A stretch of 64,000 nt of DNA from Terriglobia bacterium. Lineage in GTDB: Bacteria; Acidobacteriota; Terriglobia; Bryobacterales; Bryobacteraceae. The position numbers and the translations under genes are program-made. A model generated the notes under the pieces. The model worked only from the letters and a program-made list of their open reading frames with translations, did no database searches and was not told the DNA's origin. The DNA lies in contig JAIQFN010000001.1 in NCBI GenBank assembly GCA_020073265.1, positions 62,001-126,000 on the forward strand. Direction: 5' to 3'. Positions 42,588-44,480 of this stretch are shown piece by piece (the stretch's first letter is position 1; every line of letters begins with the position of its first letter).

Positions 42588-43385
42588 TTAGCGGCCCGCC
42601 CAGCTCTGTCGCCTTGCGTCGAAACCTTTCTGGAATGCCTTGATCTGCATATGAAATTGCAGCGCGCTTCGCTGGTGGAAATCGTCTCGATCCAACTCCG
42701 TTAGTTCCTCTGCGGACATCCCCTGGTTACTAAGAAAGCTGTGCACAATTTCGGCATCTTCGTCCGTTGCTATGGCTCCAACGTCTGTACCCAGCAGGAA
42801 CGCATTGGCGTGCTCGAGGTCTTCTAATTCGGCAGCAAATACCTCGTCGCTGAAGATGCGATCGCTTCCAGCTTCATAGTAGCTAAGCAGCACTTTCAGA
42901 TCATCGAGGTCCTTCCGTCGACGATAGGGATCTTCCATGTGCGCCACCATCTTCAGCAGCGCAACTACGGGTGGCGGGGCCACTTTGAACCGAACATCGG
43001 GAGCAAATGAGATCAACACTGATCGAGCAAAGACGTGCTCGAATCCGACTAGACTCATTGCAAACTGACTCTCGGGCCAAACGATTCGCTTGGCGGCCCG
43101 CAGATTCGGGCCAGCAGGCATTAGATCAATTAATGACCCGCTTGGTCCGCGCCAGCGATGTTCTCTGCCCGGCTCCTGAGTCCACCCACGCGTCTTGAGT
43201 TGGGTCGAAAAAACTGCGAAGTCTTCGAGGTCAAGAGCCACCACGAGATCGACGTCCCGTGTGAATCGTCCGAGGTCAATGAAGCAGAGGAGCGCAGCAG
43301 CCCCGATGATTGTGACGGCGGCCGCAAACGATTCGGCAACAACATGCAGTTGCGCGACATCTGTCATCTGCTCCTTGGTTAGCAT
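42588..43385 (-). CDS. AbiEii-type nucleotidyltransferase toxin
   Basis: 265-residue nucleotidyltransferase that would form the toxin of an AbiE abortive-infection/type IV toxin-antitoxin system. After V-T-I-I-G-A-A-A-L-L the motif D-L-G-R-F-T-R-D-V-D-L-V-V-A gives the G-x-x-x-x-R-D-x-D acid pair of the AbiEii family; K-M-V-A-H and R-R-K-D-L-D-D-L-K-V-L-L supply the later conserved Lys and Asp. The ATG at 43385 is four bases after the stop of the antitoxin gene, so the two form an operon. GC is lower than in flanking genes. All nucleotidyltransferase residues I can see are present. Confidence 0.8.
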   Translation of the reverse strand: MLTKEQMTDVAQLHVVAESFAAAVTIIGAAALLCFIDLGRFTRDVDLVVALDLEDFAVFSTQLKTRGWTQEPGREHRWRGPSGSLIDLMPAGPNLRAAKRIVWPESQFAMSLVGFEHVFARSVLISFAPDVRFKVAPPPVVALLKMVAHMEDPYRRRKDLDDLKVLLSYYEAGSDRIFSDEVFAAELEDLEHANAFLLGTDVGAIATDEDAEIVHSFLSNQGMSAEELTELDRDDFHQRSALQFHMQIKAFQKGFDARRQSWAGR

Positions 43386-43389
43386 GCGA

Positions 43390-44427
43390 CTAGGCCAAGA
43401 ACTTAGCCCGAAACTCGTCGGCCGCCTCGAGAGCACGGGGATCTTTGCTGTTCAAGAGCTCTGCATAGATGAGCCACGGCGGTGCGAGCATATGACCTTC
43501 TCGCTCCTCCCAGAAGACAAGATCTCCGAATGCGCTTAGAATCGTTATCGGACCTTCGCGATCAGGGAGCAACCGGAGTTGGTGTGCGATTGCTCGGGTC
43601 GACGGTTTGAGAAACAATGTTACTTCAGTTCCTCGATAGAAGTGCTGGAGGAGATCAGCCGCTGGGCCACCAGTAAGTGAATATCGGACGCCCGGTGGAA
43701 CCTCCTCGCGAAGACGAGATAGAAAGGATTCTGCCGTCTTTTCTGCCGCGCGAAACGTGCCCAGCGTGAGTTTCGGGCGGAGCACTTGTGCGTAGCCCAA
43801 TATTAGGCGGTCGGCCAGCAAGCTTGTTGGCCCGAGCTGGTACCGTCTGCCCGCACGCGCGAGCAAGCCTTCTGTGATCATTTGACGTCGGGCTTGCGCA
43901 GCCTTGCTCTTACTAATTCCGGCTGCTGGTTCTAGTCGGCGTACTGACCAGTTGACAGACTCCGTATGGGTGACGAATTGAAAGAGTAACTGGAGTTGTG
44001 CGGGGCTAGCTGAGCGTCGTTGGGATACTGGCTCTTGCGATGGAATGCCGATGGCCGTCCAGTTATAAGCATCCCCGAGCTCCAGGTGAACGTTGCCAGC
44101 ATCGTCCACGAAATTCACTCTAGCGTTGATGAGGGCTTCTGCGGCCTGGCGAGGGATGTGACGGGCCAGAAGGATGATACCTTGCTTCTGATTCGTTCGA
44201 AGGTGGCTCAGCCACGCGAGCATGTGGCTAACGGTGGAACGAGACAGATAGGATCGCTTCTCTTCAACCAAGAGCTGAAATCGACCATGCGGAGTCGTGA
44301 TCACAAGTTTCCCGTCGTATCCCGATTCACGGCCCTCTTGGATGCGCGTATACTTAAGGTGCTTGACGAACGGCAGATGCCGAAGACGGTCGAAGATCTC
44401 AAGCTCTTGATAAGATTGTCGCACCAT
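43390..44427 (-). CDS. AbiEi-type antitoxin and transcriptional regulator
   Basis: 345-residue partner of the nucleotidyltransferase. The central part reads L-Q-L-L-F-Q-F-V-T-H, A-A-G-I-S-K-S-K-A-A-Q-A-R-R-Q-M, E-G-L-L-A-R-A-G-R-R-Y-Q-L, a winged helix-turn-helix. The C-terminal half has V-R-Y-S-L-T-G-G-P-A-A-D-L-L and the strand-helix pattern of the AbiEi C-terminal domain that binds the toxin. The N-terminal 110 residues have a K-L-V-I-T-T-P-x-G-x-F-x-L-L-V-E-E-K restriction-like E-x-K, which is unusual. The ATG at 44427 sits just after a nested dyad operator, so it probably represses its own operon. Confidence 0.75.
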   Translation of the reverse strand: MVRQSYQELEIFDRLRHLPFVKHLKYTRIQEGRESGYDGKLVITTPHGRFQLLVEEKRSYLSRSTVSHMLAWLSHLRTNQKQGIILLARHIPRQAAEALINARVNFVDDAGNVHLELGDAYNWTAIGIPSQEPVSQRRSASPAQLQLLFQFVTHTESVNWSVRRLEPAAGISKSKAAQARRQMITEGLLARAGRRYQLGPTSLLADRLILGYAQVLRPKLTLGTFRAAEKTAESFLSRLREEVPPGVRYSLTGGPAADLLQHFYRGTEVTLFLKPSTRAIAHQLRLLPDREGPITILSAFGDLVFWEEREGHMLAPPWLIYAELLNSKDPRALEAADEFRAKFLA

Positions 44428-44429
44428 TC

Positions 44430-44480
44430 GTCCACGATATTAACATGTCCACAAATAGTGGACAAGAGGAATATGTGGAC
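44430..44480. promoter_or_regulatory. Nested dyad operator for the AbiE operon
   Basis: Four 6-bp boxes are arranged with exact symmetry about 44455: GTCCAC at 44430 and 44447, GTGGAC at 44458 and 44475. The inner pair makes the 19-bp palindrome TGTCCACAAATAGTGGACA (44446-44464). Spacing between outer and inner box is 11 bases on both sides. It covers the promoter and touches the antitoxin start. Confidence 0.8.
44437..44465 (-). promoter_or_regulatory. Promoter of the AbiE operon
   Basis: On the minus strand TTGTCC (44465-44460), a 17-bp spacer and TAATAT (44442-44437). The -10 lies nine bases from the ATG at 44427 and no Shine-Dalgarno is present, so the mRNA is probably leaderless or nearly so. 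The operator boxes overlap both hexamers. Confidence 0.65.

Follow-up and report, generated by a model that had tools for sequence, protein, structure and literature searches.

A nested set of four hexamer boxes, 51 bases in all, lies immediately before an AbiEi-type antitoxin gene in the window (the whole 64,000-nucleotide stretch of Terriglobia bacterium DNA that was analyzed) and appears, from its sequence and that of its relatives, to be the operator of this adjacent antitoxin, very probably its own autoregulatory one. Read on the minus strand toward the antitoxin gene, the order is GTCCAC-11-GTCCAC-5-GTGGAC-11-GTGGAC-2-ATG, with the ATG at 44427, gaps of 11-5-11 bases and a common centre of the four boxes at 44455 (Table 1). 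An earlier reading of this DNA made from the letters alone (hereafter, the sequence-only reading) had given the box positions, the equal 11-base gaps, the 5-base core and the same centre, all exact as read, and had placed the site against the antitoxin start, from which box 4 (44430-44435) is indeed separated by only two bases.

We consider it probable that the site is an autorepression operator with one winged helix per box and four protomers, covering promoter and start of an operon with a leaderless mRNA. We infer cooperative binding, repression and a leaderless transcript as follows: each box (TGTnCA core) would be read by one winged helix, and four protomers would occupy the site symmetrically, as a dimer on the inner pair, whose box centres are 12 bases (about one helical turn) apart, plus one protomer on each of the outer boxes, 17 bases away. 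The filled operator would cover the putative −35 element, spacer, −10 element, transcription start and start codon and so exclude RNA polymerase; on a drop in antitoxin, both genes would be transcribed on one mRNA with little or no leader.

Table 1 Features of the antitoxin–toxin locus in the window.
Feature	Coordinates	Strand	Remarks
Box 1 (outer, upstream)	44475..44480	-	GTCCAC on minus strand
Box 2 (inner)	44458..44463	-	GTCCAC on minus strand; TTGTCC common to putative −35
Box 3 (inner, inverted)	44447..44452	-	GTGGAC on minus strand; within putative promoter spacer
Box 4 (outer, inverted)	44430..44435	-	GTGGAC on minus strand; at expected transcription start, 2 bases before ATG
Putative −35 TTGTCC	44460..44465	-	4/6 to sigma-70 consensus; outside promoter-scan output
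Putative −10 TAATAT	44437..44442	-	4/6 to sigma-70 consensus; between boxes 3 and 4; outside promoter-scan output
Expected transcription start	44427..44432	-	from −10 position and promoter registers across relatives
AbiEi-type antitoxin gene, 345 aa (P0001)	43390..44427	-	PF09952 over cut-off, residues 203-340
N-terminal PD-(D/E)XK-like domain (tentative), residues 1-126	44050..44427	-	AlphaFold model, Foldseek, fold comparison; D38, E55, K57
MarR-like winged-helix domain (predicted), residues 136-219	43771..44022	-	AlphaFold model and fold comparison
Recognition helix (predicted), residues 173-185	43873..43911	-	first residue K173 covaries with box base 3
C-terminal nucleotidyltransferase-like domain (tentative), residues 229-345	43393..43743	-	AlphaFold model and fold comparison
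AbiEii-type toxin gene	42588..43436	-	PF08843 over cut-off; open frame from GTG 43436; ATG 43385 just after antitoxin stop

The locus and the predicted antitoxin domains

When up to three mismatches are allowed, the 51-base pattern has a single copy in the window and no copy in 100 dinucleotide-preserving shuffles. At up to two mismatches, the inner palindrome by itself is about as frequent as expected (3 in the window vs. 2.94) and is not rare, as a chance arrangement of a common hexamer would have it; thus, the information lies in the four-fold arrangement. Chance is refuted by the shuffles, none of which holds the full pattern, and by the family-wide conservation against controls described below, so that the probability we leave to it is negligible. 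The exact inner palindrome is present at four places in the genome of origin, with outer boxes only at the copy in the window; because the three other copies are without outer boxes, no regulon is claimed.

The antitoxin matches PF09952 (AbiEi_2), which we take to correspond to COG4861, at 45.5 bits (curated cut-off, 21), and the adjoining downstream toxin matches PF08843 at 28.5 bits (cut-off, 22.5); the same antitoxin-toxin order is annotated in 9 of 12 plasmid loci. NCBIfam returned no family up to E = 1 for either protein, PADLOC gave weak matches only (AbiEii, 17.3 bits), and a profile search of solved structures yielded no relevant match (best E-values, 0.11 and 0.57).

The AlphaFold model of the antitoxin (mean pLDDT 86.6, pTM 0.67), a monomer that cannot show an oligomer, consists of three parts. 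For residues 1-126, Foldseek found 2vld (E = 7.7 × 10−3, probability 1.00; no match at E ≤ 0.001) and fold comparison found PaqCI (Z 7.5 over 115 residues), with the motif residues D38, E55 and K57 retained in 91, 79 and 90 of 110 aligned rows, respectively. The winged helix (residues 136-219) has its best MarR-type match in 4rgu (Z 9.2, rmsd 2.8, 75 aligned), and residues 229-345 resemble ANT(2'') (4xje, Z 8.6, 117 aligned) and the toxin MenT1 (8rr5, Z 8.1, 111 aligned). Because Z-scores near 8 may reflect common arrangements, the PD-(D/E)XK-like identity of the N-terminal domain and the nucleotidyltransferase-like identity of the C-terminal domain are both tentative. MenT1, which the C-terminal domain resembles, is a toxin of the same superfamily as the toxin in the window, and this likeness suggests that the antitoxin is possibly derived from, or mimics, its toxin. 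One winged helix per antitoxin chain is predicted, which gives no support to one of the two arrangements proposed in the sequence-only reading, namely, a single dimer whose chains carry two winged helices each.

The TTGTCC-17-TAATAT promoter of that reading is present; however, each of its hexamers matches the consensus at 4 of 6 positions and it is unreported by the promoter scan (threshold, 9/12). The promoter in the window is weak by consensus. A start at 44427-44432, as expected from the −10 position, would give a leaderless or nearly leaderless mRNA.

Conservation and variation of the layout

An initial scan of genomes that used only P0001 as query gave no relative; matches at E = 10−8 are present in 19 of the 297 genomes of the phylum, including the genome of the window itself. 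The PF09952 collection covers 26 of 200 genomes of the order and 37 of 396 genomes of the phylum, and was extended by 80 named loci out of 276 relatives and by loci from other phyla. With the position of the antitoxin gene in each locus set by HMM, 158 loci with the gene were reduced to 139 distinct ones, 129 of which had the 5-prime end in hand; a set of 166 distinct loci, window included, was obtained after exclusion of duplicates and of loci with an HMM start beyond 60.

Upstream regions of the relatives show the same nested layout with different letters. With the geometry fixed at 17-11-17, 98 of the 129 distinct loci reach a score of 26 of 36 or more, compared to 1, 1, 1, 0 and 0 of 129 when segments of equal length are taken from other parts of these loci. 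For the inner pair GTnCA-N7-TGnAC, the counts are 137 in 43,203 bases of 5-prime sequence vs. 9 in 585,353 bases elsewhere in the loci, and 117 of the 166 distinct loci have such a pair. A looser rule, which asks for GTnC in three of the four boxes and permits eight spacings, captures 110 of 129 loci; this count comes without a separate control, whereas the fixed-geometry and inner-pair tests and the 18-14-18 test below are controlled. The sequence-only reading had named the lack of these boxes upstream of close homologues as grounds for rejection; they are kept, at the same spacing, before the genes of the two best relatives (44% and 41% identity), and the four-box spacing persists in relatives down to ~20-25% identity. 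The layout is found in hosts that include Gamma-, Beta-, Alpha- and Deltaproteobacteria, Nitrospirae, Eisenbacteria, Chlorobiaceae and Holophagaceae, and it is also carried by plasmids of Diaphorobacter, Fibrella, Spirosoma, Hymenobacter and Synechococcus (by the rule, in 11 of 14 viral and plasmid loci). By this comparison of upstream sequences, the four-box layout is a family trait across several bacterial phyla, constant in spacing and changing in letters.

In 99 of the 117 inner-pair loci, an outer box lies 16-18 bases away on both sides; 15 have such a box on one side and 3 on neither. The distance of the upstream box is exactly 17 bases in 107 loci and that of the downstream box in 90, with both at 17 in 85, and an upstream box at 10-15 or 19-25 bases was found in none of the 117. 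The loci with one outer box or none conform to a different possibility, that the inner palindrome alone is the true high-affinity site and the outer boxes are weak auxiliaries that tune or delay repression, as do the widely different affinities for its four repeats and the negative cooperativity reported for Rv2827c (PMC7319586). However, the four boxes in the window are identical and the outer boxes are at exactly 17 bases in most loci, so that we regard such auxiliaries as rather unlikely.

Twenty of the 117 inner-pair loci (for example, L102, L121 and L142) carry two inner pairs, separated by 54-163 bases. Several of these loci have two complete four-box operators in tandem, eight boxes in all; in L132, the boxes are mostly GTTCA in the upstream set and GTCCA in the downstream set.

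A second four-box layout, 18-14-18 (TTTTCA/TTTCAG or related), in which every interval is one base longer, was identified at a score of at least 26 in 15 of the 32 loci without a GTnC operator by the rule (control segments, 1, 0, 0, 0 and 1 of 32). These loci form a sister group (L036, L037, L041, L042, L049, L077-L079, L083, L084, L199 and L207-L210). The remaining 17 of the 32 loci outside the GTnC rule also miss 18-14-18 at this threshold; among them are cases that look degenerate or relettered (L100, L103, L107, L120 and, with GATCA boxes, L205) and the N-masked L025, and in some (e.g. L043, L054, L197 and L200) no operator was seen. Spacing also varies in smaller groups, by symmetric widening to 18-11-18 in L091, L101 and L111 and by an asymmetric 17-11-16 arrangement in L167, L172, L175-L179, L181, L202 and L203; being asymmetric, the latter group fits perfect symmetry poorly.

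The first in-frame start codon begins at the first base of box 4 in 49 of the 101 exact 17-11-17 operators. For 44 operators of this class, the best promoter register has the −35 element between boxes 1 and 2 and the −10 element on box 3 (score 7.86 of 12; median over offsets, 3.25). In the class of the window (22 operators, start 51-53 bases from box 1), the best register is 7 bases further on (score 6.41; median, 3.32; offset 18 next, with 6.0), and in the 35 operators belonging to neither class, the best offset is 18 (score 6.4). At offsets 15 and 18, the hexamers share letters with the boxes, so that the window-type register partly rests on the boxes themselves. Start codon and putative promoter slide together, by ~7 bases between the two groups, and the box spacing is constant. 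Thus, the geometry is apparently fixed by the protein and not simply by the promoter.

Box letters and the recognition helix

The third base of the box is the letter most closely tied to the protein. Among 103 loci with a clear third base (7 operators of mixed type were left out), the first residue of the predicted recognition helix is the most informative column for this base (excess of 1.03 out of 1.27 bits; next column, 0.75). In the pooled set of 161 distinct rows, H, K or R goes with C in 56 and with T in none of 59 rows (K, 13 C of 13; H, 42 C, 2 A and 1 mixed of 45; R, 1 C). L goes with T in 79 and with C in none of 88 rows (4 A and 5 mixed), a count that includes 15 loci of the 18-14-18 type assigned T by our own register, 13 of them with L, without which L has T in 66 of 75. 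Q goes with A in all 3 rows, and V, I, N and T vary. In the two loci with Y as this residue, box base 2 is A (L205, GATCA; L198, TATCA), one case in each layout. A simple residue-base code was rejected, failing at L190 and L192, which have H yet GTACA boxes (helix context SHGVVQ).

Blind prediction of T from L was correct in 20 of 21 cases in one set and in 6 of 6 in another (26 of 27), a success weaker than apparent because T was commoner in these sets; prediction of C from H was correct in 0 of 2 and 1 of 1 (1 of 3). Tree-controlled C/T tests, on trees built without the helix columns, were not significant: counting supported branches only, there were 3 and 4 independent pairs, each of which agreed with expectation or was undecided (median p = 0.5 and p = 0.25). 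For T vs. the rest there were 6 pairs, on average 4.2 in the expected and 0.3 in the opposite direction (median p = 0.125). Given the small number of independent switches, the dependence of box base 3 on the first helix residue appears as a strong association with little phylogenetic power, not as a proven code.

Within operators, the third base agrees between the inner and the outer pair (CC/CC in 33, TT/TT in 25 and AA/AA in 3 of 96 complete operators), so that all four boxes are seemingly read by the same element; with one winged helix per chain, this suggests four chains per operator. Two protomers could also suffice, one on each 23-base half, if the winged helix read one box and a different domain the other: the half-operator (box-11-box) has the same length as the 23-bp repeats reported for PabiEi and Prv2827c, and the extra N-terminal PD-(D/E)XK-like domain might touch DNA. 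However, both boxes of a half are the same word, with agreeing third bases, which is hard to reconcile with two different reading domains, and the published 23-bp repeat of Streptococcus agalactiae has no second box copy at +17. We therefore judge occupancy by two protomers to be distinctly improbable.

Inverted repeats are common in bacterial DNA, and the boxes might serve another regulator or process, such as an RNA hairpin or a recombination site, with the antitoxin gene as a bystander. The layout, however, travels with the antitoxin family across phyla and plasmids, and its letters change with the recognition helix; in addition, only box 4 could be transcribed from the putative promoter, which makes an RNA hairpin of all four boxes unlikely. 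A bystander role of the antitoxin gene seems highly implausible on these grounds.

Relation to published operators and significance

By its position relative to the ATG and to the putative promoter, the four-box operator proposed here is a set of inverted repeats over an antitoxin-toxin promoter, as in AbiEi operators. The precedent cited in the sequence-only reading, autorepression by AbiEi-type antitoxins, is indeed known at inverted repeats, but in the COG5340 lineage and with a different operator layout. The antitoxins of S. agalactiae, M. tuberculosis (Rv2827c) and S. suis all belong to COG5340 or are described as similar to it. COG5340 and COG4861 antitoxins are reported to share no sequence identity, COG4861-COG4849 being a separate pair (PMC3985639).

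In S. agalactiae AbiEi/AbiEii, a COG5340-COG2253 type IV toxin-antitoxin system, AbiEi alone represses its own operon at two 23-bp inverted repeats, with one monomer proposed per repeat and a start site 26 bases before the ATG (PMC3985639). The window resembles this system in having the antitoxin gene first and the nucleotidyltransferase toxin second, a winged-helix antitoxin and inverted repeats over the promoter. The S. agalactiae operator has two 11-bp boxes 27 apart, one in each of the two 23-bp repeats, which are 3 bases apart, and the gene has a ribosome-binding site (PMC3985639), whereas the window has not this arrangement but four identical 6-bp boxes at 17-11-17 with halves 5 apart, and its start is expected at box 4, with no leader. 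M. tuberculosis Rv2827c binds four 23-bp repeats with negative cooperativity, and there, as proposed for the window, four antitoxin-bound repeats lie over the promoter of a DUF1814 toxin operon; however, that operator spans 131 bp, with 13 bases within pairs, 4 between them and repeats of unequal sequence and affinity (PMC7319586), whereas the 51-bp site of the window, with four identical boxes in strict nested symmetry, contains no such set of 23-bp repeats. Thus, the layout matches neither published type.

AbiEi of a S. suis element binds two palindromes (PMC11062541), and MenA1, another kind of antitoxin paired with a toxin of this superfamily, is described as showing no autoregulation (PMC11375011), so that autorepression is not universal. 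Xre-RES of Pseudomonas putida likewise involves higher-order palindromic DNA in toxin-antitoxin autoregulation, but the protein family is different and the repressor is the 4:2 toxin-antitoxin complex (PMC12204516). MarR-type regulators share with the antitoxin in the window the winged-helix fold (residues 136-219, by the model) and an inner palindrome at dimer-like spacing, whereas the antitoxin has two further domains and its operator two extra flanking boxes. No account of a four-box operator for PF09952 (AbiEi_2) antitoxins was found in the literature searched, which was mainly open-access.

More tentatively, and in our view with somewhat less in favor than against, the entire family may share a rigid four-protomer operator, the geometry of which is constant over phyla, with letters drifting along with the helix residue, a box welded to the leaderless start (the start codon often lying in box 4) and the promoter sliding inside. 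The letters would then follow the scheme K/H, GTCCA; L, GTTCA; Q, GTACA; and Y, xATCA. If this is true, the family would offer a natural, readable specificity code that insulates antitoxin copies from each other.

For PF09952 (AbiEi_2) antitoxins, these observations provide a precise candidate operator, with exact box positions, a proposed stoichiometry and a helix residue that is predicted to determine one base. Searches for 17-11-17 and 18-14-18 patterns could serve to find antitoxin operators and to correct start codons in genomes, and the antitoxin family is a natural set for the study of co-changing repressor and operator letters under a fixed geometry.
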